A stretch of DNA of 64,000 bases from Embleya scabrispora (lineage in GTDB: Bacteria; Actinomycetota; Actinomycetes; Streptomycetales; Streptomycetaceae). The notes below the pieces were generated by a model. It was not told where the DNA came from. It was given only the letters and a program-made list of their open reading frames with translations, and ran no database searches. The DNA is taken from contig NZ_MWQN01000001.1 of the NCBI RefSeq assembly GCF_002024165.1, positions 5,394,001 through 5,458,000 of the forward strand, given 5' to 3'. The first letter of the stretch is position 1, and each line of letters opens with the position of its first letter. Below are positions 4,881 through 51,149 of this stretch, piece after piece. The position numbers and the translations under genes are program-made.

Positions 4881-7208
4881 GTGACGGAACACGGATGGCC
4901 GGGTGAGCCACCGGCCAAGGGGGATCCGGAACGGATCGGCCCCTACGCGGTGCTCGGCCGACTCGGCGCCGGCGGCATGGGCCGTATCTATCTGGGGCGT
5001 TCGCCCTTCGGGCGACTGGTCGCGATCAAGACCATCCGCTCGGAGCTGGGCGGCGACCCGGGCTTTCGCGCGCGCTTCGCCCAGGAGGTGGCCGCGGCCC
5101 GCCGGGTCAGCGGCGTGTTCACCGCCGCCGTGGTCAACGCCGACCCCGACGCCGCGGTGCCGTGGCTGGCCACCGCGTACGTGCCCGCGCCCTCGCTGGA
5201 GTCGCTGGTGCGCGCCTGCGGCCCGCTGCCGCCGCGCGCGGTGCGCTGGATGGCCGCCGGCATCGCCGAGGCGCTGGAGTCCGTACACGCCGCCGGCCTG
5301 GTACACCGCGACCTGAAGCCGTCCAACGTGCTGGTCGCCAGCGACGGCCCCAAGGTGATCGACTTCGGCATCTCGCGCGCCGCCGACTTCGGCTCGCTCA
5401 CCATGACCGGCGTCGCCGTCGGCACCCCGGCGTACATGTCGCCCGAACAGGCGCAGGGCGTGCGCGACATCACCCCCGCCAGCGACATGTTCTCGCTCGG
5501 CGCCACGCTGGTGTACGCGGCCACCGGGCACTCGCCCTACCCCGACCGCAAGCCCGCCGAGGCGCTGCTGCGCCTGGTCACCGGCTCGCCGGACCTGGAG
5601 GGGCTGCCGACCGAGCTGACCGGCCTGGTCAACCTGTGTATGCAGCGCGCCGCCGAACACCGGCCGAGCCCGACCCAGTTGCTCAACCAACTCGCCCCGC
5701 TCCTGGACGACAGCGACGCGGACAGCCAACTGCCCGACAACGCGTCGGCGATGGTGCAGCGGTTCGAGAGCCAGTACCGGCCCACGATGGGCCCGCGCAC
5801 GCCGCCGGTCCGCGAACTCGTCGAGCCCGACGGGGAGCAGCGGCCCGAACTGCCGGAGAACGTGCGTCCGGACCCGAACAACATGGGCAAACTGCCCAAC
5901 CAGGTGCGCCAGGAGCCGCGTCCGGCGCCGCGCCCGGAGACCCACCGGCCACCGCCGCCCCAGCGTCCGCCGACGAACCCGACCCGCAAGCCGCCGCCCC
6001 GGCCGCCGGCCCCGCCGACGAACTCGCCCACGGGCGGCCCGCCGGGCGGCTCGCGACCGGTCTCGGGACGACCGGTGTCCACGTCCTCGCCTTCGCCGGC
6101 GCTGCCGACCGAGCGGGTGGCCCGGCCGCCCGCCCCGATACCCAACTCTCCGGTCACGTGGCCGGAGAGCGGTCCCGACGTGCCCCGCCAGCACCCCACG
6201 CCGCCGCGCACCCCCACCGGCGGCATGGAGGCCGCGCCGGTGTGGCGGTTCGCCGCGACCGGCGAGATCCTGACCCCGCCGGTGCGCGCGGGCTCCGGGC
6301 GGACCGCCCGCGTACACGTGCACAGCAACGACAACGGGCTGCACACCCTGCATCTGGCCACGCGCGAGTGGCGGTTCGACTCCTCGGGCTGGTCGCACCC
6401 GCCGGCCGTGGACGGCGAGCTGATGTACCTCAGCAGCCAGGACAACCACGTCTACGCCCTGGAACTGACCTCGCGGCAGTGGCGCTGGAGCTTCCCCACC
6501 GGCGGTGAGGTCGTGGCCGCCCCCGTGGTCGCCGACGGCACCGTCTACTTCGGGTCCAGCGACAACGCGCTCTACGCCGTGGACGCGGCCACCGGGCGCT
6601 GTCGCTGGCGGTTCCCCACCGGCGGCTGGGCCACCTCGCCCACCGTCGTGGACGGCACGGTGTACTTCGGCTCCAGCGACCGCTGCGTCTACGCGCTGGA
6701 CGCGGCCACCGGCTGGTGCCGCTGGCGCTTCCCCACCGGCGGCTGGGTGTCCTCGCCGACGGTGGCCAACGGGATCGTGCACGTCGGCAGCACCGACCAG
6801 TACCTGTACCTGCTCAACGCCGGCGACGGCGCGATGCGCGGCTGGTTCGGCGCGGGCGGCCCGGTCGCCCAACCGGCCACCTCGGGCAACCTGTCCTTCT
6901 TCGGCAGCGGCGACGGCGGCCTGTACGCGGTCGACGTCAACACCACGCGCTGCGTGTGGCGTTACGGCGCCGAGGGCTGGGTCACCTCGCCCGTGGTCGC
7001 CGAGGACATGGTGTACGCGGGCAGCAGCAACGGCTCGGTGCTCGCGGTCGGCATGGGCGGCGAGCCCCGCTGGCGGTTCACCACCGGCGGTCGGGTGACC
7101 TCCCCGATCGTGGCCGACGGCCTGCTCTTCGTGGGCAGCGCCGACCGCCACCTGTACGTCCTGGACGCGGTCACCGGCAAGGGCCCGTCGGCCGGGACCA
7201 ACGGCTGA
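4881..7208 (+). CDS. Serine/threonine protein kinase with C-terminal PQQ beta-propeller repeats
   Basis: A 775-residue Hanks-type kinase. The catalytic domain (about 18-290) has the glycine loop GAGGMG, ATP lysine K50 (VAIKTI), catalytic loop HRDLKPSN with D144, DFG at 161 and an SPE motif, so it looks active. A proline-rich linker (about 300-445) leads to a C-terminal set of PQQ-like repeats of the form WRFPTGG...YAVDAATG (about 450-770), expected to form a beta-propeller sensor or docking surface. No membrane helix is seen, so it is probably cytoplasmic. The GTG at 4881 follows GGGGGGAT; the open frame extends further upstream but that part has no kinase homology. It is a paralogue of the kinase at 8928, which lies beyond gltA. 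Confidence 0.92.
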   Translation: MTEHGWPGEPPAKGDPERIGPYAVLGRLGAGGMGRIYLGRSPFGRLVAIKTIRSELGGDPGFRARFAQEVAAARRVSGVFTAAVVNADPDAAVPWLATAYVPAPSLESLVRACGPLPPRAVRWMAAGIAEALESVHAAGLVHRDLKPSNVLVASDGPKVIDFGISRAADFGSLTMTGVAVGTPAYMSPEQAQGVRDITPASDMFSLGATLVYAATGHSPYPDRKPAEALLRLVTGSPDLEGLPTELTGLVNLCMQRAAEHRPSPTQLLNQLAPLLDDSDADSQLPDNASAMVQRFESQYRPTMGPRTPPVRELVEPDGEQRPELPENVRPDPNNMGKLPNQVRQEPRPAPRPETHRPPPPQRPPTNPTRKPPPRPPAPPTNSPTGGPPGGSRPVSGRPVSTSSPSPALPTERVARPPAPIPNSPVTWPESGPDVPRQHPTPPRTPTGGMEAAPVWRFAATGEILTPPVRAGSGRTARVHVHSNDNGLHTLHLATREWRFDSSGWSHPPAVDGELMYLSSQDNHVYALELTSRQWRWSFPTGGEVVAAPVVADGTVYFGSSDNALYAVDAATGRCRWRFPTGGWATSPTVVDGTVYFGSSDRCVYALDAATGWCRWRFPTGGWVSSPTVANGIVHVGSTDQYLYLLNAGDGAMRGWFGAGGPVAQPATSGNLSFFGSGDGGLYAVDVNTTRCVWRYGAEGWVTSPVVAEDMVYAGSSNGSVLAVGMGGEPRWRFTTGGRVTSPIVADGLLFVGSADRHLYVLDAVTGKGPSAGTNG

Positions 7209-7252
7209 GCGCGGGGCGGGCGAACGCGCCCGCCCCCGACCCCCGCGACACG

Positions 7253-7314
7253 CGACGATCCCGGAGCCGTCGCCGGCGAACCGCGGTTCGCGAGCTTCGA
7301 CTCCGGGATCGTCG
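7253..7314. terminator. Bidirectional hairpin between the PQQ-kinase and citrate synthase
   Basis: Perfect 14-bp arms CGACGATCCCGGAG (7253-7266) and its complement (7301-7314) enclose a second small palindrome, CGAACCGCGGTTCG. It sits between two convergent genes and is likely to stop transcription from both sides. Confidence 0.6.
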
Positions 7315-7332
7315 TCGGGTGTTCGATCCGGG

Positions 7333-8622
7333 TCAGCGCGCACCGATGGGGGTGTAGTCGCGCAGCGCGACGCCCGTGTACACCTGGCGCGGACGGCCGA
7401 TCTTGGCCTTCGGGTCGGCGATCATCTCCTGCCAGTGCGCGATCCAGCCCGGCAGCCGGCCGATCGCGAACAGCACCGTGAACATCTCGGTGGGGAAGCC
7501 CATCGCCCGGTAGATCAGCCCGGTGTAGAAGTCCACGTTCGGGTAGAGCTTGCGCTCGACGAAGTAGTCGTCGGCCAGCGCGCGCTCCTCCAACTGCATC
7601 GCGAGGTCGAGCAGTTCGTCCTTCTTGCCCATCCGGGACAGGACGTCGTCGGCGGCCTTCTTGATGATCGTCGCGCGCGGGTCGCGGCTCTTGTACACCC
7701 GGTGGCCGAAGCCCATCAGGCGGACGCCGTCCTCCTTGTTCTTCACCTTGTTCACGAACGCGTCGATGTCGCCGCCGTCGTTCTTGATCTGCTCCAGCAT
7801 CTCCAGCACCTGCTGGTTGGCGCCGCCGTGCAGCGGGCCCCACAGCGCGTTGATGCCGGCCGAGATGGACGCGAACATGTTCGCCTGGCTGGAGCCGACG
7901 AGGCGCACCGTCGAGGTCGAGCAGTTCTGCTCGTGGTCGCCGTGCAGGATGAGCAGCTTGTCCAGCGCGTCCACCACGACCGGGTCGGCCTTGTACGACT
8001 CGGCCGGGACGGCGAAGGTCATCCGCAGGAAGTTCTCGACGTAGCCGAGCGAGTTGTCCGGGTAGAGCATCGGCTGGCCGACCGACTTCTTGAACGCGTA
8101 GGCCGCGATCGTCGGCAGCTTGGCCAGCAGCCTTATCGCCGAGAGCCGGACCTGCTCCTCGTCGAACGGGTTGTGGCTGTCCTGGTAGAACGTCGACAGC
8201 GCGGACACCACGGACGACAACATCGCCATCGGGTGCGCGTCGCGCGGGAAGCCGTCGTAGAACCGCTTGACGTCCTCGTGCAGCAGCGTGTGCTGGGTTA
8301 TCTCGTCGCGGAAGTTGTCCAGCGCGCTCACCGACGGCAACTCGCCGTAGATCAGCAGATACGCCGTCTCCAGGAAGGTCCCCTGCTCCGCGATCTGCTC
8401 GATCGGGTAGCCGCGGTAGCGGAGGACGCCCTCCTCGCCGTCGATGAAGGTGATCGCCGATTTACACGCGGCGGTGTTGACGAACCCTCCGTCGTAGGTC
8501 ACCAGCCCCGTCTTTGCGCGCAGCGTCGAGATGTCCATGGCGGTGTCGCCGATGGTGCCCTCGATCAGCGGGAAGGTGTGCTCGTTTCCTTGGTGGCGCA
8601 GTACTACCGAGTCCTCGCTCAT
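7333..8622 (-). CDS. gltA: Citrate synthase (type II)
   Basis: This enzyme condenses acetyl-CoA with oxaloacetate to citrate, entering the TCA cycle. At 429 residues it has the type II length and the N-terminal small domain typical of hexameric enzymes. Active-site regions are visible: LHGDHEQNCSTSTVR, WGPLHGGANQ, and GFGHRVYKSRDPR with the catalytic aspartate. The ATG start is followed by SEDSVVLRHQG. It lies alone between two kinase paralogues and diverges from the second kinase across about 305 bases that should hold its promoter. Confidence 0.97.
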   Translation of the reverse strand: MSEDSVVLRHQGNEHTFPLIEGTIGDTAMDISTLRAKTGLVTYDGGFVNTAACKSAITFIDGEEGVLRYRGYPIEQIAEQGTFLETAYLLIYGELPSVSALDNFRDEITQHTLLHEDVKRFYDGFPRDAHPMAMLSSVVSALSTFYQDSHNPFDEEQVRLSAIRLLAKLPTIAAYAFKKSVGQPMLYPDNSLGYVENFLRMTFAVPAESYKADPVVVDALDKLLILHGDHEQNCSTSTVRLVGSSQANMFASISAGINALWGPLHGGANQQVLEMLEQIKNDGGDIDAFVNKVKNKEDGVRLMGFGHRVYKSRDPRATIIKKAADDVLSRMGKKDELLDLAMQLEERALADDYFVERKLYPNVDFYTGLIYRAMGFPTEMFTVLFAIGRLPGWIAHWQEMIADPKAKIGRPRQVYTGVALRDYTPIGAR

Positions 8623-41590: not shown

Positions 41591-43192
41591 CTACGCCCGG
41601 TGTACGACGCGGCCCGCGACCACCGTCGCGGTGACGGGGAGTTCCGGTAGGTCGTCGGGAGGGCAGGTCAGCGGGTCGCCGCCGAATACGGTCAGGTCGG
41701 CCCGGCAGCCGACGGCGATCCGGCCGGCCGTCCTCTCCTCGCCCGCCGCGTAGGCCGCCTGCGTGGTGTAGCCGGCCAGGGCCTGACGGGCGGTGAGGCC
41801 GACCGAGGCCCCGTACGCCGCGCGGCCGATCTCGCCCGCGGGTCGGCGCAGTTGGGCGCCGGCCAGGGTGCGTCGCGGGTCGAACGCGGCCACCGGCCAG
41901 TCCGAGCCGAGCGCGACGTGCCCGCCGGCGGCCAGGATGTCCGCGCAGCGCCAGGCCTTGGCCGCCCGCTCCGGGCCCACCCGGCGCGACCAGTTGTCGG
42001 ATTGGTCGGGCAACGACCAGTCCATGTGCGTCGGTTGCATCGACGCCACCACGTCCAGCGCGGCGAAGCGCGGCACGTCGGCGTCGCTCAGCACCTCGGC
42101 GTGCTCGATGCGATGCCGGGTACCGAACGGCGCGGCGTGCTCGGCGTAGACGTCCAGGGCGCGGGCCACCGCCCGGTCGCCGATCGCGTGTGTCCACGCC
42201 GGCAGGCCCGCGTGGGCGGCGATGGCGACCGCTTCGGCGTACCGGTCGAAGTCCTTCCACTGGGACCGGTGCGACTGGCCGCAGCAGTCCGGCTCGTGCA
42301 GCCACGCGCCGCCGCCGTCGATCGCCCCGTCGGCGAAGAACTTGATCGCGGCGAGCTTGACCAGCCCGTCCGGCCCGCCCAGGGACCGCAGTTCGCCGAT
42401 CCGCTGCGCCAGGTTGTCCACCTCGCCCGGCGGACACCACGGCGCGAGGTGGACCCGCATGCTCAGCCGCCGCTCCGCGTCCAGCTCGGCGAGCGTGTCG
42501 ACGGTGCCCGGCGCGTCGTCCAGGATGTGTACGCCGGTGACCCCGTGTCGGTTCTGCTCGGCGAACAACTCCTCGACCCGGGCCGACATCTCGCCGCGCG
42601 GCATCGGCGGTACCGCGCGGTAGCCCAGGAAGCACGCGGTCATCTCGTGCAACTCGCCGGTCGGACCGCGCTCGTCGCAGACGATCTCGCTCCGGTCGGC
42701 GAACTCGCGCGGCCCGGTCAGCCCGGCCAGGCGCAGCGCGGCCGTGCTCAGCAGCGCGGTGTGGCTGTCCGACATCCAGATGAACGCGGGCCGACCGTCC
42801 ACGGCGGCGTCGATCAGGTCGCGGTGGATGGCCCGGCCGGCGAATGCCGCGTACTCGCCGCCGAAGCCGACCACCCAGTCGTTCGGACCGCACGGCGCGG
42901 CCTGTTCGGCGAGGCGGCGCTGTACCTCGGCCAGGGTGACGGCGCCGACCAGGTCGGCCCCGCGAGTGCTGCCGGCGCCCATCACGGAGTGCTGGTGACA
43001 ATCCGTCAGGCCGGGGGTGACGGTGTGTGCGATCGCCTCGAGCACCTCGGTACGCGGGCCGATCAGCGCCCGGGCGTCGGCGCCGAGCGCGACGATCACC
43101 CCGTCCCGGACGGCGATCGCGTCCGTGACCGGCCGGTCCCGATCCATGGTCAGTACGTGCGCGTCGGGGATGACGAGGTCGGCGGTGGTCAT
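41591..43192 (-). CDS. Amidohydrolase (YtcJ-like metal-dependent hydrolase)
   Basis: A 533-residue enzyme of the amidohydrolase superfamily. It has the N-terminal metal pair region TPGLTDCHQH, a central KFFADGAIDGGG, metal histidines in THAIGDRAV and HRIEHAEVL, and a C-terminal LGSDWPVAAFDP aspartate. The ATG overlaps the stop of the upstream permease as ATGA, so the two are translationally coupled and the permease probably brings in the substrate (an amide or amine-like compound; inferred). Confidence 0.9.
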   Translation of the reverse strand: MTTADLVIPDAHVLTMDRDRPVTDAIAVRDGVIVALGADARALIGPRTEVLEAIAHTVTPGLTDCHQHSVMGAGSTRGADLVGAVTLAEVQRRLAEQAAPCGPNDWVVGFGGEYAAFAGRAIHRDLIDAAVDGRPAFIWMSDSHTALLSTAALRLAGLTGPREFADRSEIVCDERGPTGELHEMTACFLGYRAVPPMPRGEMSARVEELFAEQNRHGVTGVHILDDAPGTVDTLAELDAERRLSMRVHLAPWCPPGEVDNLAQRIGELRSLGGPDGLVKLAAIKFFADGAIDGGGAWLHEPDCCGQSHRSQWKDFDRYAEAVAIAAHAGLPAWTHAIGDRAVARALDVYAEHAAPFGTRHRIEHAEVLSDADVPRFAALDVVASMQPTHMDWSLPDQSDNWSRRVGPERAAKAWRCADILAAGGHVALGSDWPVAAFDPRRTLAGAQLRRPAGEIGRAAYGASVGLTARQALAGYTTQAAYAAGEERTAGRIAVGCRADLTVFGGDPLTCPPDDLPELPVTATVVAGRVVHRA

Positions 43193-44733
43193 GCGGTGCT
43201 CTCCACGGGGGTCGAGGGTTCGGGGTCGGTGCCGCCGTCGGCGAAGCTCGCGCCGACCCGCACCTTGTCCTGGGGGCGCTTGATCAGCAGGTACAGCACG
43301 CCGGTGCCGACCACGATGGCGATGCCGATGACGGCGGCCCACACCTGGTAGGCGGGGGCGTCCGGCGGCGCGAGGATTCTGCGCGGCCAGGCGATGTTGA
43401 CGAATTCGAAGGCCAGCCAGGCGACGGCGAGCACGTTCAGCGGGGTGCCCCACCGGCCGAGCCGGACCAGGCCGGCGGGCGTCCAGGTGCCGCGCAGTCG
43501 GGCGATCAGCGCGGCCAGCGCGATCAGCAGGAACTGGAGGTAGATGGCGGCGCTGCCGAAGGTGATCAGGCTGCCGATCGCGGAGCTGTCCAGCGCGAGG
43601 AGCAGGGCAGAGCAGCTGATCGCGGAGGTGATCAGCAGCGCGCCCACGGGGGCCTGCCGCCGGTTGATCCTGCGCAGTGCGCGGGAGGCGGGCAGTACGT
43701 CGTCGCGGGAGACCGAGTACACCGCGCGCGCGGCGGACGCCTGGGAGGCGAGCGCGCATGCGACGAAGGCGATGATCACCACCACCACGAAAGGCTTGGC
43801 CGACCACGAGCCGAACGAGTTCACCACCGCGGTGGTGACCGGGTCCAGGTCCTCGCCGTGCACCACCGCGGCCGGGTCGGGATGGGCCAACTGCACGGCG
43901 ACGGCGTTGAGTACGACCAGGCCGCCGACGCTGGTCAGCGTCCACCAGATCGCGCGGGGTACCTGCCGGGCGGCGTCCCTGGTCTCCTCGGAGGAGGCCA
44001 CACACGCGTCGAAGCCGATGAACGCCCAGCCGCCGACCGCGAGCACGGTGAGCAGGGCCGAGAGGGTCGAGCCCCCGGACAGGGACTGTGCGCCCATCGT
44101 CTCGGTGAGGATGCCGAAGCCGTTCTCCCGGAAGAGCAGGAGCAGCGCCAGACCCACCCCGAGCGAGGCCACCGCCTCGGCCGCGATGCCGGCGGCGAGT
44201 ACCAGGCGCAGCACGTCGATGCCGAGCGCGTTGACGGCGGTACAGCAGAGCAGGAATATCGCGGCCACCGCGACGATCCGGCCGGGTGTGGGCTCGGCGT
44301 CGAACAGGGCGAAGAACCAGGGTGCGCCCAGATAGACGATCGTGGTGTTGGCGAACACCACCGCGCACAGCGCCACCCATCCCGCGAGCCACGCGTAGGT
44401 GGGCCCGAGCAGACGACGGGCCCACTGGTAGGCGCCGCCGGCGATCGGATACTGCGAGGCCAACTCGGAGTACACGCACATCAGCAGCGCCTGGCCGAGC
44501 AGCGCGACCAGGAGCACCCACACCCACGCGGGGCCGGCGACGGTGGCGCCGACCTGGACGACCGCGTACAGGCCCACCACGGGGGAGACCGTCGCGAAGC
44601 CGATGGCGAGGTTGCCCAGCACGCCGAGACTGCGCTTGAGCTCCTGCTCGTAGCCCAGTTCGCCGAGCCGTGCGGCGTCGTGGTCGGGCGCTTTGCCGGT
44701 GGGGATCGGTGGGCGAGAAGTGCCGTGGTTCAT
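43189..44733 (-). CDS. APC superfamily amino acid/amine permease
   Basis: A 514-residue transporter with about 12 membrane segments. The N-terminal helix contains GFATVSPVVGLYAVV and the helix-6 region reads GGWAFIGFDACVASSEETRDA, typical of amino-acid/GABA/choline-type permeases in actinobacteria. It is the first gene of a two-gene operon with the amidohydrolase and diverges from a TetR gene. An AT-rich palindrome lies just upstream of its start. Confidence 0.92.
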   Translation of the reverse strand: MNHGTSRPPIPTGKAPDHDAARLGELGYEQELKRSLGVLGNLAIGFATVSPVVGLYAVVQVGATVAGPAWVWVLLVALLGQALLMCVYSELASQYPIAGGAYQWARRLLGPTYAWLAGWVALCAVVFANTTIVYLGAPWFFALFDAEPTPGRIVAVAAIFLLCCTAVNALGIDVLRLVLAAGIAAEAVASLGVGLALLLLFRENGFGILTETMGAQSLSGGSTLSALLTVLAVGGWAFIGFDACVASSEETRDAARQVPRAIWWTLTSVGGLVVLNAVAVQLAHPDPAAVVHGEDLDPVTTAVVNSFGSWSAKPFVVVVIIAFVACALASQASAARAVYSVSRDDVLPASRALRRINRRQAPVGALLITSAISCSALLLALDSSAIGSLITFGSAAIYLQFLLIALAALIARLRGTWTPAGLVRLGRWGTPLNVLAVAWLAFEFVNIAWPRRILAPPDAPAYQVWAAVIGIAIVVGTGVLYLLIKRPQDKVRVGASFADGGTDPEPSTPVESTA

Positions 44734-44759
44734 CGGGACCTCGCAGCGGGAGCGAATAA

Positions 44760-44772
44760 AACTTACTAAGTT
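44760..44772. promoter_or_regulatory. Palindromic operator between the permease and TetR genes
   Basis: AACTTA-C-TAAGTT, a perfect 13-bp palindrome in an unusually AT-rich patch, 27 bases before the permease start. It probably binds the divergently encoded TetR protein. Confidence 0.55.
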
Positions 44773-44886
44773 AGTTTGAGGACCATAGCCCCCGGCCGGG
44801 TGTAGGGGAAGAGGTGGATTCCGGCTAGGTTGGCCACGCGGAGTGACCGACGACGGCGCTCGCGAACGGCACGAGGTGAGCGCACG

Positions 44887-45504
44887 ATGGGTCGACCCAA
44901 CCGCCCCAAACTCGACCGGGAACTGATCGCCCGCGCGGCGGTGGACCTGGTCGACGAGCACGGCATGGGCGCGCTCACCATGCGGGCGCTGGCCACCCGC
45001 TTGAACGTGCGGGGGCCGTCGTTGTACAACCACGTGTCGTCGAAGGAGGAATTGCTCGACGCGATCACCGTGGTGATCACGAGGGAGATAGACCGCGCCC
45101 CGCTGGACGACCCGGACTGGCGGGTCGGCATCACCGCATTCGCCCGCGGCTACCGCGCCGCGTTCCTGCGCCACCCCGACGCGCTCCCGGTGATCGCCCG
45201 CCGGCCGGTGTCCACGGAGGAGGCCCTGTCGGCCTATGACGCCGTCGTTCGCACGCTGATCCGCATCGGCCTCCCCCCGGCCGAGGCGGCCGAATTCTCG
45301 GCGGCACTCGACTACCTGGTGGTCGGCTCGGTGATCGAGACGTACGAGGAGGGCTTCGCGCGGTCGGCCGAGGAGTACCGGGCCGATTACCCGTCACTGG
45401 CCCGCGCTCTGACCGCCGGAGACCGCGACACCCTCAACGCCCGCGGCTTCGAGAGGGGCCTGCGCCTTCTCCTGGACGGGCTCGCGTCCCGCCTGAAGCC
45501 CTGA
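44887..45504 (+). CDS. TetR family regulator with TetR_C-type ligand domain
   Basis: A 205-residue regulator. The N-terminal helix-turn-helix includes LTMRALATRLNVRGPSLYNHVSSKEELLDAI, the pattern of the TetR/TetR_C subgroup. The C-terminal half has the tetracycline-repressor-like ligand pocket architecture. The ATG at 44887 follows GAGGTGAG. It is divergent from the permease-amidohydrolase operon, which it probably controls. Confidence 0.9.
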   Translation: MGRPNRPKLDRELIARAAVDLVDEHGMGALTMRALATRLNVRGPSLYNHVSSKEELLDAITVVITREIDRAPLDDPDWRVGITAFARGYRAAFLRHPDALPVIARRPVSTEEALSAYDAVVRTLIRIGLPPAEAAEFSAALDYLVVGSVIETYEEGFARSAEEYRADYPSLARALTAGDRDTLNARGFERGLRLLLDGLASRLKP

Positions 45505-45840
45505 CCACGCCACCAGCCACCCGTCGGTCCGCCGCCTGCCGCTCCGGCCTCCCGTCGCCCGTCGCCCGTCGGTCCGCCGTCTGCCGTTCCGGCCTCCCGT
45601 CGCCCGTCGGTCCGCCGTCTGCCGTTCCGGCCTCCCGTCGCCCGTCGGTCCGCCGCCTGCCGCTCCGGCCACCCGCCACCCGCCACCCGCCGCTCGCCGG
45701 TCCGCCGCCTGCCGCTCCCGCCACCCGCCACCCGCCGCCCGCCGGTCCGCCGCCCGCCGGGCCGGCCACCCGGCTCCCGCCGGTCCCGGCTCCCGCCGGT
45801 CCCGCCACCTGCTTCCCGTCGCGCGCCGGTCGGGGTGGAC
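45505..45840. repeat. Degenerate GC-rich tandem repeat with 38-bp units and inserted 7-bp subunits
   Basis: The core GGTCCGCCG recurs at 45526, 45571, 45609, 45647, 45699 and 45744. The distances are 45, 38, 38, 52 and 45, that is 38 plus 0, 1 or 2 times 7. The extra pieces are copies of a heptamer (GCCCGTC or CACCCGC type). Pyrimidine-rich on the plus strand. No coding potential. Confidence 0.75.
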
Positions 45841-45877
45841 GGGGCGGAGTCATGGTGTCGGCGTTGGGTGGGGGGCG

Positions 45878-45928
45878 TTGACAGTGGTGTATTGAATGCC
45901 GTTCAATTCGGATTGAACGGCATTCAAT
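45878..45928. promoter_or_regulatory. Promoter with double palindromic operator before agmatine deiminase
   Basis: A TTGACA at 45878 is followed by two 17-bp palindromes, ATTGAATGCCGTTCAAT (45891-45907) and ATTGAACGGCATTCAAT (45912-45928). They are also exact complements of each other, separated by TCGG. Each has ATTGAA-N5-TTCAAT. Their centres are 21 bp apart, two helical turns. The first overlaps the expected -10 region, which fits repression. Confidence 0.75.
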
Positions 45929-46013
45929 ACGGAGGTCCGTGTGGGCTCCTGTGGTGCCCATGGCGCTCGTAGCGGCCGAAGGACACGCGGCTCCCGACGA
46001 AAGAAGTGGTGAG

Positions 46014-47048
46014 ATGACGAACACCCCTGTCGCCGACGGCTTTTCGATGCCGGCGGAGTGGGTGCCGCACGAGCGCACCTGGATGGCCTGGCCCAGCCGC
46101 AACGAGACCTTCGCCGAGGAGGACCTGCACACCGCGCGCGCCGCGTGGGGCCGGGTGGCCGGGACGATCGCCCGCTACGAGCCGGTCACGCTGATCACCG
46201 ACCTGGGCGAGTCGGACACCGTGGCGCGCTACGTCGACCGGCCGCTCACCGTGCTGGAGAGGCCGCTCGACGACGCGTGGATGCGCGATATCGGGCCAAC
46301 CTTCCTGACCGACGGCCGAGGTGGCATCGCCGCCGCCGACTGGGTGTTCAACGGGTGGGGCGCCCAGGAGTGGGCCTCGTGGGAGCACGACCGACACATC
46401 GCGGAGCATGTGATCGAGGCGGCCGGCGTCCGCCGTTACGCGTCGCGGATGGTCAACGAGGGTGGCGGGATCCACGTCGACGGCGAGGGAACGGTGCTGA
46501 TCACCGAGACCGTGCAACTCGACGAGGGCCGCAACCCCGGGTGGACCAAGGAGCAGGTCGAGGCCGAGTTGAAGGCGTTCCTCGGGGTGCGGAAGGTGAT
46601 CTGGCTGCCGCGCGGACTCACCCGCGACTACGGCCTGTACGGCACGCGAGGCCACATCGACATCGTCGCGTCGTTCGCTCGACCGGGCCTGGTCCTCGTC
46701 CACGTGCAGCCCGATCCGGCGCACCCGGACCACGAGGTGGGCAAGGAGAACGCGGCTCTGCTGCGCGCGGCCACCGACGCCGAGGGGCGATCCCTCGAGG
46801 TGGTGGAGATCCCGGCGCCGACCGTGCTCGAAGCCCACGACGACTGGGTCGACTTCAGCTACATCAACCACTACGTGGCCAACGGCGCGGTGATCCTGTG
46901 CGCGTTCGACGACCCGCGGGACGAGGAGAACGCGGCGACCTTCGGCAAGCTCTTCCCCGGCCGCGCCATCGAACTCGTGGACGCCCGGGACATCTTCGCC
47001 AACGGCGGCGGCATCCACTGCATCACGCAGCAGCAGCCGAGGGCCTGA
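46014..47048 (+). CDS. aguA: Agmatine deiminase
   Basis: This enzyme converts agmatine to N-carbamoylputrescine and ammonia in arginine/polyamine breakdown. The 344-residue protein has PAEWVPHERTWMAWPSRNE, DAWMRDIGPTF, the GGGIHVDG loop, GHIDIVASF, and the catalytic cysteine in GGGIHCITQQQPR. The ATG at 46014 gives the usual N-terminus; an upstream ATG at 45960 is possible. It lies behind the double operator at 45891-45928 and is probably de-repressed by a polyamine-type ligand. Confidence 0.93.
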   Translation: MTNTPVADGFSMPAEWVPHERTWMAWPSRNETFAEEDLHTARAAWGRVAGTIARYEPVTLITDLGESDTVARYVDRPLTVLERPLDDAWMRDIGPTFLTDGRGGIAAADWVFNGWGAQEWASWEHDRHIAEHVIEAAGVRRYASRMVNEGGGIHVDGEGTVLITETVQLDEGRNPGWTKEQVEAELKAFLGVRKVIWLPRGLTRDYGLYGTRGHIDIVASFARPGLVLVHVQPDPAHPDHEVGKENAALLRAATDAEGRSLEVVEIPAPTVLEAHDDWVDFSYINHYVANGAVILCAFDDPRDEENAATFGKLFPGRAIELVDARDIFANGGGIHCITQQQPRA

Positions 47049-47093
47049 CGGGCACGGTGGCGGGTGTCCGGTCGGCGGGCGGCCGGCGGGGGG

Positions 47094-47621
47094 TCAACGC
47101 CCTGGCAGCGGTGGTGTGTTGCCGGGGGCGGCCGCTGATTCGCCCGGCACGGCGGGTGGTTCGGCCGGCTTCGGGATCGGGGCGGTGACGGGTCGGCCGC
47201 GCTCGCCGGCGCCGAACGCGGCCAGGGTGAGCAGGAGTACGGCCAGGGCGACGGTGGTGGCGGTCGGTATGTACCAGCCGGCGTCGGTCGCGGGTTCGAT
47301 GAGTGCGGCGAGCGCCGCTATCCCGCCCGCGTAGAGGAGGGCGCCCGCGAAGGCGGGTATGCCGCGCCGACCGGCACCGGCGGCGACCGCGCCCGCGATC
47401 AGCGCGAGCAGCAGCAGCAGGCCGGACAGGCCGATCAGGGACGGCCCGAAGTCGTCACCGGTGCAGCCGCGTCGGCCGAAGTCGTCGCACGAGCCCAGGG
47501 CGGCGGCCCGGATCGCGTATGTCCCGATCAGCCAGCCCGCCGAGGTCGCTCCGGCGAACGGGAGGAGCCACCCGCGAAGGGAGGCCGTGACGGGGTGGGA
47601 CGCCGGTGCGTCGGTGCTCAT
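47094..47621 (-). CDS. Four-TM membrane protein, function unknown
   Basis: A 175-residue protein with about four hydrophobic segments, a cysteine-containing extracytoplasmic loop (GSCDDFGRRGCTGDDFG) and a proline-rich C-terminal tail. No family recognised. Convergent with aguA. Confidence 0.75.
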   Translation of the reverse strand: MSTDAPASHPVTASLRGWLLPFAGATSAGWLIGTYAIRAAALGSCDDFGRRGCTGDDFGPSLIGLSGLLLLLALIAGAVAAGAGRRGIPAFAGALLYAGGIAALAALIEPATDAGWYIPTATTVALAVLLLTLAAFGAGERGRPVTAPIPKPAEPPAVPGESAAAPGNTPPLPGR

Positions 47622-47848
47622 GGTCGGAGGCTAGGCGGCGTGCGGGACGCGCGGATGAACGACCGGGAAGCGCGGGATGAAGGCTGCGTGGCCCGGCGGG
47701 CGGGCGGACCGGGTGGGGGAGGAAAGAGACCGGGCAAGGGCGGGATCGGAGCGGAGGGGAGCGGTTCGAGGTTCCGGGCCGAGCCACCCGTGGCGGGTCG
47801 ATCCCGGCCCCTCGGCCCTGACCCTCCCGCCCCCGCCGGGTGGTCGGG

Positions 47849-48160
47849 TCAGGACTTGGGCGTCGCGCCGTGTGCGGTGGCGAAGGCGGCGATCCGGCCG
47901 GCGAATTCCGTGTCGGTGGCCGTGATTCGGTTGCCGGCGTCGTGGGTGGTCAGGGCGAAGGTCAGGGTGCCGTAGAGGATGGTGATCCGGGCGTGGTGGT
48001 TCGCCTGGTCCTCGGCGGCGGCGACGGTCGCGTAGAAGGCGGGGACATCGGCGCGGGCGCAGGTGTACGTCGCGGTCAGTTCCCCGTCGGTGACCTGCCA
48101 ACCCGGGAGGTCGGCGAGGGCCTTGGTCAGTTCGGCGTCGGTGAGCGGCTGGGGTGCCAC
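47849..48160 (-). CDS. Pterin-4a-carbinolamine dehydratase
   Basis: A 103-residue enzyme that dehydrates 4a-hydroxytetrahydropterin, regenerating pterin cofactor. The signature NHHARITILYGTLTFALTTHDAGNRITATD contains the conserved histidines and the D..G segment. The GTG start follows GAGAGGA. It diverges from the TetR gene at 48341, with a palindromic site between them. Confidence 0.9.
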   Translation of the reverse strand: MAPQPLTDAELTKALADLPGWQVTDGELTATYTCARADVPAFYATVAAAEDQANHHARITILYGTLTFALTTHDAGNRITATDTEFAGRIAAFATAHGATPKS

Positions 48161-48275
48161 GGTGGGTCCTCTCGTCGGAGATGGGCGCGGACGGCCGGGG
48201 TCGCGGGCCGGGAACCGGTTCCGGTCGCGTCATCGGCTTCCGCCAGTATGGCGGCGTCGGTTCGCCGGGCGCGGT

Positions 48276-48292
48276 ATTGAACGACGTTCTAA
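48276..48292. promoter_or_regulatory. Palindromic operator between pterin dehydratase and TetR, similar to the aguA sites
   Basis: ATTGAACGACGTTCTAA has the same ATTGAA-N5 left half as the two aguA operators and a weaker right half (TTCTAA for TTCAAT). It is the likely auto-regulatory site of the TetR gene 48 bases downstream. Confidence 0.6.
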
Positions 48293-48340
48293 CATGGCGG
48301 CAGGCGGGGTCCGCCGTCGAACGAACCAGGGGTGCTGAGC

Positions 48341-48967
48341 ATGGCGGGGACACGGCGCAAACGGCTGGAGCAGCCCAGGGAGGTGGTGCTCCAGGCCGCG
48401 ATGGACGCGATCGCCGAGCACGGGCTGGCGCAGCTGACCATGGCGGGCCTGGGCAAGCGGATCGGGATCAGCGGCGGCCACGTCGCCTATTACTTCGGGT
48501 CCAAGGAACAACTCCTGGTCGAGACCCTGCGCTGGAGCGAACAGGGATTCGCCGAGCGGCGACGGGCCCTGCTCGGTGCGACCGGGGTGCCGCGCGCCGA
48601 GCGGCTGGCCGGCTACATCGACCTGTACCTGCCCGACGAGCGCGCCGACCCGCGCTGGACGTTGTGGCTGGAGGTGTGGACGCGCTCCCTGGCCGACCCG
48701 GACGTGTCGGCCGCGAGCGCGGAGATCGAGGGCCCGTGGATCGCGGATCTGCGGGCGATGATCGCGCCGCACCCGGACCCCGACGGGTACGTGTTGCGCC
48801 TGCACGCGCTGCTCGACGGGCTGGCCACGCGGATCGTGATCGGCGCGCCCGGTCCGTCGCGGGCCGAGATGGTTCGGCAGGCGATCGGGTTCGCGGTACG
48901 TGAGGCGGGCGTCGATCCGGCCGCCGAGCCGGGTGCGGAGCCCGGTACGAACCACACGGACAGGTGA
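48341..48967 (+). CDS. TetR family regulator (probable regulator of aguA)
   Basis: A 208-residue regulator. Its helix-turn-helix reads LTMAGLGKRIGISGGHVAYYFGSKEQLLVETLRWSE, of the BetI-like subgroup. The ATG at 48341 follows AGGGG; a GTG at 48332 overlaps that site and is less likely. An operator resembling the aguA sites lies upstream, so I infer it controls itself and agmatine deiminase, and perhaps pterin dehydratase. Confidence 0.88.
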   Translation: MAGTRRKRLEQPREVVLQAAMDAIAEHGLAQLTMAGLGKRIGISGGHVAYYFGSKEQLLVETLRWSEQGFAERRRALLGATGVPRAERLAGYIDLYLPDERADPRWTLWLEVWTRSLADPDVSAASAEIEGPWIADLRAMIAPHPDPDGYVLRLHALLDGLATRIVIGAPGPSRAEMVRQAIGFAVREAGVDPAAEPGAEPGTNHTDR

Positions 48968-49018
48968 TCGGAGGCCGAATTCCTCCTGTCCGGCGCGGCC
49001 CGGTCGCATCGTGGACGG

Positions 49019-49738
49019 ATGAAGTGGTGGCGGAACCCGAAGCTGCTCGCGGTGCTCGGCACGGTCTTGGCCGTGCTGGTGGCCGTGGGCCTGGCCCATC
49101 GCGACGGGCCGGCCGGGACCGGTCCGGCGACGGCCGAGGGGGCACCGGTCGGCGCTCCGGTGTCCCCGAGCGCCCCGGCTTCGAGCGCCCCGGCTCCGGC
49201 GGTTCCGACCCACGCTGCGCCCGCGAGCCCTCGGGCGACGAAGCTCTCGTCCGCGCCGAGGAATGTGCTGCCCGACCTGGTCGGCGCCGACCTGCAGGAG
49301 GCGTGGGACGGCGCGCGCCGGGCCGGCTACCGGTTCGTCACCTCGCACGACGCGAGCGGGCGGGGGCGGCGGCAGTTCATCTTCAGCAGTTGGAAGGTGT
49401 GTGACCAGAGTCCCGATCCGGGGCCGCTGGACAAGGGACTCCGGGTCGAGTTGGGCGTGGTTCGGCACGATGAGAAGTGCCCCACCGGCGCGGCGCCGAC
49501 CACCGAGCCCAAGGTGGTCGACGGCCGGATGCCGAACCTGGTCGGGCGCAGCGTCATCGTCGTGCGGCGCGGTCTGCGCGGTGCGGCCCACGTCGACGTG
49601 GACGACCTCGGCGGCGGGCGGCCGGTGCTGATCGAGACGCACTGGGTCGTCTGTACCCAGCGACCGGCCGAGGGGCAGCCGGTGCCGGACACGGTGGGGG
49701 TGGGCGTGGTGAAGTACGGCGAACGGTGCCCGGATTGA
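49019..49738 (+). CDS. Membrane-anchored protein with two PASTA-like domains
   Basis: A 239-residue protein. An N-terminal membrane helix (about 8-27) is followed by a low-complexity alanine/proline/serine linker and two PASTA-like units: LPDLVGADLQEAWDGARRAGY...WKVCDQSPDPG...GVVRHDEKCP and MPNLVGRSVIVVRRGL...WVVCTQRPAEG...GVVKYGERCP. Each unit has paired cysteines. PASTA domains often bind peptidoglycan or lipid II. It has no kinase domain, so it could be a secreted cell-wall sensor. Function unknown. Confidence 0.82.
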   Translation: MKWWRNPKLLAVLGTVLAVLVAVGLAHRDGPAGTGPATAEGAPVGAPVSPSAPASSAPAPAVPTHAAPASPRATKLSSAPRNVLPDLVGADLQEAWDGARRAGYRFVTSHDASGRGRRQFIFSSWKVCDQSPDPGPLDKGLRVELGVVRHDEKCPTGAAPTTEPKVVDGRMPNLVGRSVIVVRRGLRGAAHVDVDDLGGGRPVLIETHWVVCTQRPAEGQPVPDTVGVGVVKYGERCPD

Positions 49739-49760
49739 GGCTCGGCCCGGCCGCCGTCGG

Positions 49761-51149
49761 TCAGAGCCCCAGCGCCTCGCGGGCCGGGTCCACCAGCTTG
49801 CGTACCGTGCGGCCGTCGGCGAATCGGCCCAGCGCGGTCATCGTCCAGATCGGTCCCTCGCGGACCAGCTTGCACATCAGCACACCCGTGCGCGGCTCGG
49901 AGCCGGACAACTCGAAGCGCACCAGTTCGGTGTCGGTGGTGTCGTCGACCAGGCGGCAGAAGGCGCGCGAGACCTCGGTGAACTTCTGCCCCAGGAACGA
50001 GTTCACGGTGAAGACGAGGCCGGTGACGTGCGGCGGGAGTGCATCCAGGCAGACCACGATCGACTCGTCGTCGCCCTCGCCCTCGCCGGTCAGGTTGTCG
50101 CCGGTGTGCCGGATCGCGCCGCCCAGGCCGGACAGTTTCATGAACCAGACCGCGACCACCTTTTTGCCGTGCGCGTCGAAGGCGATGCAGGAGGCGTCGA
50201 GGTCGATGCTGCCGCCGGACTTGGCCGGGTCCCAGCCCAGTCCCATGCGCACCCGGGTCAGCGGCGGTGCGCCGGTCTTGACCAACGACACCGACTGGTC
50301 CTTGCGCAGGCTGACCCGACCCTTGTCGAGGTTGATCGGGGCGGCGGCGCCGGTGCCGGTGCGGGTGGTGGTGCCGGTGGGCAGCGGGGCGGTGCGGGCC
50401 TCGACGGGAGTCGGGGCCGGCGGCGTGGGCCGCGTCGTCATCGGGCGGCGTGGGATCGGCGGTGGGATCGGCGCGGGCCGGGGCGGCTCGTGTGGAAGCA
50501 GCGGGGCGACCGGCGGAGTCGGGGTGTCGTCGTACGCCGGGGCCTCGGGGCGGGCGGGTGGTACGTCCGCGTTTCCGGCCGGTTCGGGGCGGCTCGGCGT
50601 CGCCGGTTGCGGGCGGGTGGGCGGCGGGGCCGGGTCGTCGTCGACCGAGACGCCGAAGTCGGTGGCGATGCCCGCGAGTCCATTGGCGTAGCCCTGGCCG
50701 ACCGCGCGCACCTTCCATACGCCGCCGCGCCGGTACAGCTCCAGCAGCACCAGCGCCGTCTCCCGGCCCAGGCCGTGCGGGGTGAACGTGACCAGCGCCT
50801 CTCCGGACGGGTCGCGCACGGTCGCGGTGGGCGGGGTGGTGCCGCCGAAGGTGACCGGTGCGCCCGGGCCGCCGTCCAGGCTCAGCGTCACCATGATCGT
50901 CTGTACGTCGGCCGGCACCGCGGTGGTGTCCACGTGCACCGCGGCCGGTCGGCCGGGGCCGGCCGCCAGATACCGGACGCCGGGTCCGTTCGGCTGGTTG
51001 TAGAAGACGAAGTCGGCGTCGGAGCGCACCTTTCCGGCCCCGGCGAGCAGCAGCGCCGATACGTCCACCGGCGCCGTGAAGGCGACCTCCACCACCACGG
51101 CGGCCACCGCCAGCGGGCAGTTGCCACCCTTCGAGAGCGTCACCGACAT
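49761..51149 (-). CDS. Double TerD-domain protein with proline-rich linker
   Basis: A 462-residue fusion of two TerD (tellurite/stress response) domains, each about 170-190 residues, joined by a long proline/threonine-rich linker (about 185-275). The N-terminal copy has MSVTLSKGGNCPL and a DAD segment; the C-terminal copy has VSLRKDQSVSLVKTG, LGWDPAKSGGSIDLDASCIAFD with calcium-binding aspartates, and GDNLTGEGEGDDESIVV. TerD proteins bind calcium and act in stress or phage-related responses. ATG 51149 follows GGAGGGG; an in-frame GTG two codons upstream is less likely. Confidence 0.88.
   Translation of the reverse strand: MSVTLSKGGNCPLAVAAVVVEVAFTAPVDVSALLLAGAGKVRSDADFVFYNQPNGPGVRYLAAGPGRPAAVHVDTTAVPADVQTIMVTLSLDGGPGAPVTFGGTTPPTATVRDPSGEALVTFTPHGLGRETALVLLELYRRGGVWKVRAVGQGYANGLAGIATDFGVSVDDDPAPPPTRPQPATPSRPEPAGNADVPPARPEAPAYDDTPTPPVAPLLPHEPPRPAPIPPPIPRRPMTTRPTPPAPTPVEARTAPLPTGTTTRTGTGAAAPINLDKGRVSLRKDQSVSLVKTGAPPLTRVRMGLGWDPAKSGGSIDLDASCIAFDAHGKKVVAVWFMKLSGLGGAIRHTGDNLTGEGEGDDESIVVCLDALPPHVTGLVFTVNSFLGQKFTEVSRAFCRLVDDTTDTELVRFELSGSEPRTGVLMCKLVREGPIWTMTALGRFADGRTVRKLVDPAREALGL

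Follow-up and report, generated by a model that had tools for sequence, protein, structure and literature searches.

We analysed a 64,000-nt stretch of the Embleya scabrispora genome (contig NZ_MWQN01000001.1, positions 5,394,001 to 5,458,000; hereafter the window) that carries a deiminase gene, here called 'aguA', behind two palindromic sites, and a TetR-family gene, tetR, behind a related one. A family search assigns the 'aguA' product (P0001) to the PAD_porph deiminases. The tetR product (P0002), which we propose as the regulator, combines TetR_N with a BetI-type C-terminal domain and passes the Pfam cut-offs for PF00440 (44.3 bits, cut-off 24) and PF13977 (60.2, cut-off 27). The features at issue are as follows.

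45878-45883, + strand: TTGACA, putative -35 element, at a conserved position, read by eye
45889-45930: exact 19-bp inverted repeat made of both operators
45891-45907: operator 1, ATTGAATGCCGTTCAAT, an exact ATTGAA-N5-TTCAAT; its last six bases (TTCAAT, 45902-45907) are the putative -10 element
45912-45928: operator 2, ATTGAACGGCATTCAAT, an exact ATTGAA-N5-TTCAAT, overlying the putative transcription start
45939-45948: junction of a deletion of two urease-subunit genes, ureAB and ureC, placed by alignment to a locus of the same genus (L160); about 2.6 kb is gone here
46014-47048, + strand: 'aguA', PAD_porph deiminase (P0001)
48276-48292: predicted tetR operator, ATTGAACGACGTTCTAA, two mismatches to ATTGAA-N5-TTCAAT, at -64 of tetR
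48341-48967, + strand: tetR (P0002)

An earlier note on this DNA had picked out the three sites, and they hold: the two palindromes before aguA are exact, with centres 21 bp apart, and the site before the TetR gene at 48341 is indeed related to them. The note had also called the aguA pair an exact 17-bp inverted repeat; it is exact, but its arms (45889-45907 and 45912-45930, 100% complementary across a gap of 4 nt) are 19 bp long. We rejected chance as the source of the palindromes. With up to two mismatches allowed there are three matches in the window, compared to a mean of 0.08 over 100 shuffles, and a matrix built from the sites of relatives scores the window's sites at 26.8, 26.8 and 30.1, while the next 17-mer in the 64 kb scores -0.4. 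A relaxed pattern derived from the relatives' sites, TWGARYGNYRYTCWA, gave five matches in the whole genome (10.96 Mb in 8 contigs) and none for its control. Two of the five are the aguA pair and one is the tetR site; the other two form a pair at C1:4374472 and 4374492, in an unlinked locus where an NCS1-class permease gene adjoins a second tetR, tetR2. There are no further exact copies of ATTGAA-N5-TTCAAT elsewhere in the genome. The two-mismatch pattern finds 17 places genome-wide versus 6 for the reversed control and is therefore noisy by itself; three of the other places were examined together with the surrounding sequence (L127-L129), and none had a P0002 match at E 1e-10 nearby.

The arrangement of the aguA pair suggests how it might act. 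In the window and in all five relatives whose operators form a close pair (L160-L164), TTGACA lies 17-18 nt before the TTCAAT of operator 1. An automatic sigma-70 promoter scan, whose -10 rule requires A at position 2, reported no promoter in 45500-48400, and we propose the aguA promoter because of this conservation, not the scan. If transcription starts 7 nt past the -10 element, the start would be at about 45914, under operator 2. With operator 1 over the spacer and the -10 element and operator 2 over the start region, the layout predicts repression; likewise, the site before tetR predicts autoregulation. In the mechanism we envisage, ligand-free P0002 would bind both aguA operators and sterically block the -10 element and start region, it would bind the lone operator before its own gene, and a ligand, probably a substrate or product of the pathway, would release it.

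We compared the locus with the best 80 aguA loci among the matches listed, which come from Streptomyces, Kitasatospora, Streptacidiphilus and Actinospica. In most of these relatives two genes, ureAB (urease gamma/beta) and ureC (alpha-like), stand before aguA, and a divergent NCS1 permease gene is often present. When up to two mismatches to TTGAA-N5-TTCAA were allowed, a search from -500 to +60 bp of aguA yielded a single match in the 80 relatives. We considered this scarcity as a refutation and dropped it; the operator stands before ureAB, with ureAB and ureC intervening. We assembled the 160 bp upstream of ureAB from 80 loci, 70 of them among the named loci and 10 in additional genomes (G-genome loci). 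The ten named loci outside this set are three where the ureAB match begins late (L038, L068, L072), four where ureAB is wholly or mostly lost (L039, L061, L076, L093), and three with too little upstream sequence (L029, L079, L084).

The palindrome WTWGARYGNCRYTCWAW or a near match is found in 79 of the 80 upstream regions, and it is also present in L038, L068 and L072, outside the set. The sole region without it belongs to an Actinospica locus (L058) whose 13 kb also lack a P0002 homologue. The shuffle control for the count of 79 used a matrix that had been trained on these very regions, and a matrix made from the window's three sites only is the cleaner test: its top 17-mer of the entire locus precedes ureAB in 77/80, the exceptions being L055, L058 and L167, where the top match is the tetR site. 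Most regions (61/80) hold two sites above score 8, with three sites in 2 and one in 16. The commonest spacing is 68-69 bp; spacings of 21-22 bp occur in the window's genus and in genus g2. Diverged paired sites precede ureAB in genome G015, and in G034, an assembly of 800 contigs, a site precedes ureAB and no close TetR was found.

The window has lost the genes that separate operator and aguA elsewhere. In three loci of the same genus (L160, L161, L162), the order is P0003 (a second TetR gene), operator pair, ureAB, ureC, aguA, with tetR further downstream in L160 and L161; the L162 contig stops just past aguA. Window positions 45824-45939 align to L160 9973-9857, to about the start of ureAB, and the alignment resumes at 45948 in the window and 7250 in L160, the end of the gap between ureC and aguA. 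The distance from operator to aguA is about 84 bp in the window versus about 2.68 kb in L160. A GTG at 45939, near the former ureAB start, is in frame and would give aguA an N-terminal extension of 25 codons (45939-46013). When we searched the window's genome with the ureC-like protein of locus L041, the single match was a 45%-identical urease at C1:1384019.

Similar arrangements occur in a few relatives. The operator stands directly before aguA, without ureAB and ureC between them, in L039, L061, L076 and L190 (counted as loci); L093 keeps the operator, with remnants of ureAB and ureC between it and aguA; and in L164 (genome G001, 6911-7729) ureAB and ureC can be made out as fragments only, while the operator pair, aguA and tetR persist. 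These alignments indicate that the pair before aguA originally controlled an operon, ureAB-ureC-aguA, and that deletion of the first two genes in this genome put aguA straight under it. The window shows an operon in decay, with two leading genes gone and the third cleanly inheriting the operator.

Which protein binds these sites? A P0002 homologue (44-60% identity) is present in 75 of the 80 named aguA loci, its start lying within 200 bp of the aguA 3' end in 58, at 234-595 bp in 11, and at 2.0-5.5 kb in 6. All of 28 aligned TetRs have the same seven recognition-helix residues (S44, G46, H47, Y50, Y51, F52 and K55), and tetR2 has them too. The tetR gene's own site, ATTGAACGACGTTCTAA, is strong, identical and at -64 in all four tetR loci of the same genus (L096-L099); L017 and L022, in which another gene comes between aguA and tetR, also have a strong own site, at -38. 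Weak own sites (scores 11.5-15.5) precede tetR in L104, L105 and L111. No own site within 200 bp of tetR was found in the named loci where tetR follows aguA by 600 bp or less, and none was seen in the remaining family tetR loci of L100-L125, for a minority of which the distance to aguA was checked. In a sample of 200 genomes of the same family, divided by eye into those with a close TetR (E ≤1.2e-39) and those with weak ones only (E ≥1.4e-21), 149 have a close TetR and 147 of these have the operator pattern, compared to 3 of the 51 weak-only genomes (Fisher p = 5e-40, phylogeny and operon linkage ignored).

Beyond what is observed, namely the conserved sites, the operon with its deletion here and the common recognition helix, we propose, with a probability of roughly 85%, that P0002 is a local repressor acting at both aguA operators and its own gene and released by a ligand, and that the pair is ancestral to ureAB-ureC-aguA. 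The suggestion of the earlier note that one regulator serves both aguA and tetR is well supported by sequence comparison, because the sites are conserved, P0002 homologues are linked to them and the recognition helix is common to these proteins. The unlinked tetR2 locus carries such sites as well, and thus motif and regulator coincide outside the operon too.

Several observations weigh against this proposal. The window-only matrix exceeds the 99.9% shuffle level in just 63 of the 80 upstream regions. Four loci (L020, L034, L062 and L085) retain the operator with no P0002 homologue seen in the available sequence, L062 ending just after aguA. Among the six tetR genes at least about 2 kb from aguA, four (L016, L019, L021 and L023, at 3.3-5.5 kb) have no own site within 200 bp; therefore, autoregulation of tetR through such a site is not general. 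The gene and the site are both missing wherever the entire operon is missing, and the co-occurrence in the 200 genomes therefore reflects linkage more than binding. The reversed control pattern matches in about 53 of the 200 genomes (counted by eye), so that a single pattern match carries little weight. Matches without a close TetR occur in G017 (L188 1501-1530, G017:C106) and G023 (L191 1501, G023:C9). Finally, tetR2, which has the same helix, could be the actual or an additional binder of the aguA sites. A further pattern match, at L194 3235 (G031:C570), has no such TetR in its flanks; the matches in L188, L191 and L194 are possibly due to chance.

The proposed circuit is an ordinary kind of switch, made instructive by the deletion and by doubt over the name of the enzyme. 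It resembles that of AguR in Pseudomonas aeruginosa, a TetR protein that binds between the -35 and -10 elements of aguBA and that agmatine releases (PMC4287709). Both have a TetR-family regulator, an agmatine-deiminase-like gene and an operator within the core promoter, which is a prediction in our case. Whereas AguR controls aguA with the partner aguB and has agmatine as ligand, the ancestral partners here are urease subunits, and the deiminase is without the agmatine-contact residue. P0002 shares the C-terminal PF13977 with the choline repressor BetI, whose box, ATTGACG*CGTCAAT, is similar (PMC12442346). Unlike BetI, P0002 scores 59.2 bits against TIGR03384, below the cut-off of 201.3, and the two boxes differ in dyad spacing; bet genes were not seen near tetR or aguA, where no search was aimed at them. 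In the open-access literature searched, mostly at abstract level, we found no description of the operon or the regulator.

We then considered what P0002 might sense. Its predicted structure (mean predicted local distance difference test score, pLDDT, 85.1) has as its closest solved relative, in sequence and in fold, a TetR of Saccharomonospora viridis (PDB 4kwa, 4jnn, 4nel and 4ich), with 27% identity, Z 19.4-19.7 and a root-mean-square deviation of 2.3-2.5 over 181-184 residues. The two proteins have a W..W..W motif in common, and Glu111 and Glu130 are invariant in P0002 homologues; these two residues and the W..W..W motif may line the ligand pocket. According to their titles, the S. viridis crystals contain choline, benzamidine and a dimethylmethanamine compound, which are not proven inducers. 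Because of the urease partners and this relative crystallised with choline and benzamidine, a small organic cation, perhaps a guanidino compound, is a plausible ligand.

The earlier note had thought of a polyamine-responsive switch, in which agmatine or putrescine induces, aguA is a true agmatine deiminase and P0002 works like AguR. The layout resembles that of the AguR operator (PMC4287709), and the nearest solved relatives of P0001 by sequence are plant agmatine iminohydrolases. P0001 retains the catalytic His, Asp and Cys in GTRGHID and GGGIHCITQQQP; GTxGH[VI]D is present in 81/81 homologues and the Cys motif in 79 of 80 loci, the exception, L077, reading GGGVHCITQQQ. Against this, P0001 falls below the cut-offs of the agmatine deiminase models TIGR03380 (318.6 versus 381.8 bits) and NF010070 (319.7 versus 483). 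In the plant enzyme MtAIH, Asp220 contacts the terminal amine of agmatine (PMC6447857), and the position that a phmmer alignment places opposite it is Gly in 81/81 homologues; an Asp that looks conserved, in a 3-residue insertion close by, could compensate. None of 12 genomes has an AguB above the TIGR03381 cut-off (410.25 bits), with weaker nitrilase relatives reaching 262.8 bits elsewhere and 115.7 in the window's genome, and the partner genes are urease subunits, often with the NCS1 permease. Polyamine control is not supported by these results and is somewhat weakened; we regard it as a doubtful alternative.

The genome also encodes a PAD_porph paralogue on contig C6 that has Glu at the Asp220 position (EETDGHVD); with 362.4 bits against TIGR03380, it too is below the cut-off. 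About five PAD_porph genes are clustered at L171 10890-18080 (C6:170889-178079), some with long N-terminal extensions resembling export signals, and in other genomes (L143, L150, L153 and L156) ureAB or ureC genes adjoin similar PAD_porph paralogues.

A gene that scores below the agmatine-deiminase cut-offs and sits beside urease genes poses a testable pathway question. The ancestral ureAB and ureC, both lost from the window's genome, resemble the bifunctional urease gamma/beta and alpha families (PRK13192, PRK13207). In L041 the two gene products reach the cut-offs of these families (for ureC, 745.5 versus 354 against PRK13207), and the ureC-like protein stays below that of the urease alpha equivalog TIGR01792 (639.2 versus 680 bits). 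We tentatively suggest, while judging it rather unlikely as a whole, that ureAB-ureC-'aguA'-tetR, often with its divergent NCS1 permease, is dedicated to a guanidino compound and not to polyamines: the deiminase would strip ammonia from guanidine or a small guanidino compound, leaving urea or a ureido product, the urease of the operon would complete the breakdown, and the TetR would sense a guanidinium-like cation in a pocket lined by conserved Trp and Glu. A precedent is a guanidinase first annotated as an agmatinase, with urease completing the pathway (PMC12186494). If this route were real, the loss of the urease genes from several loci that retain operator, deiminase and regulator would reflect redundancy with a housekeeping urease, in the window's genome that at C1:1384019. 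For a TetR subfamily that has a close member in 149 of the 200 sampled same-family genomes, the comparison defines the operator sharply, as WTWGARYGNCRYTCWAW, and outlines a small regulon.

It is improbable, in our estimate, that the aguA sites are bound mainly by the paralogue tetR2, or by both proteins. The product of tetR2, a gene from about C1:4374650, is 46% identical to P0002, with identical recognition-helix residues, and its own locus has similar core sites with a spacing of 20 bp. Three operator-like sites lie between the permease gene and tetR2 (L126 8472-8578, C1:4374471-4374577), and the same region in six other genomes (L193, L195-L199) has one or two matches. All three tetR2 sites end in G, however, and one also starts with C; they score 9.3-20.6 versus 26.8-30.1 at aguA and tetR; and it is P0002 homologues, not tetR2, that accompany aguA. 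The tetR2 locus has only the TetR of this subfamily and the NCS1-class permease in common with the aguA locus. The earliest possible permease start there overlaps a site, so the true start is probably further in. In genome G026, the TetR is closer to tetR2 by tblastn score.

Control of the aguA operators by P0003 (44887-45504), which is adjacent to them and conserved in L160-L163, is very unlikely, as its recognition helix differs (it keeps K55 alone of the seven residues), its own divergent promoter bears another imperfect palindrome, AAACTTACTAAGTTAGTTT at 44759-44777, and no P0003 match (E 1e-6) occurs in any of the 80 named loci, although the operator is present in nearly all of these. Equally implausible is an RNA hairpin (leader or terminator) in place of protein sites: the inverted repeat could fold into a 19-bp stem without mismatches, closed by a loop of 4 nt, but the putative start falls inside it, no T-run follows, Rfam gives no family at gathering score in 43000-50000, and each dyad is kept while complementarity between sites is not, the sites differing from each other in L163 and L164 and elsewhere being single or mostly 68-69 bp apart.

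The putative P0002 operators have the following neighbours.

41591-43192, minus strand: amidohydrolase
43189-44733: amino acid permease
44887-45504: P0003, second TetR (TetR_C_1), 0.4 kb upstream of the aguA operators
47849-48160, minus strand: pterin dehydratase

The tetR operator starts 116 bp upstream of the pterin dehydratase start, and it would fit control of that gene, which the earlier note had raised as a possibility, as well as autoregulation of tetR. The palindrome between the amino acid permease gene and P0003, a different one and read by eye, is perhaps a separate operator. Between P0003 and the aguA operators (45520-45831) lie GC-rich degenerate repeats, recognised partly by eye, which include a 46-nt unit in three copies at 45702-45831.

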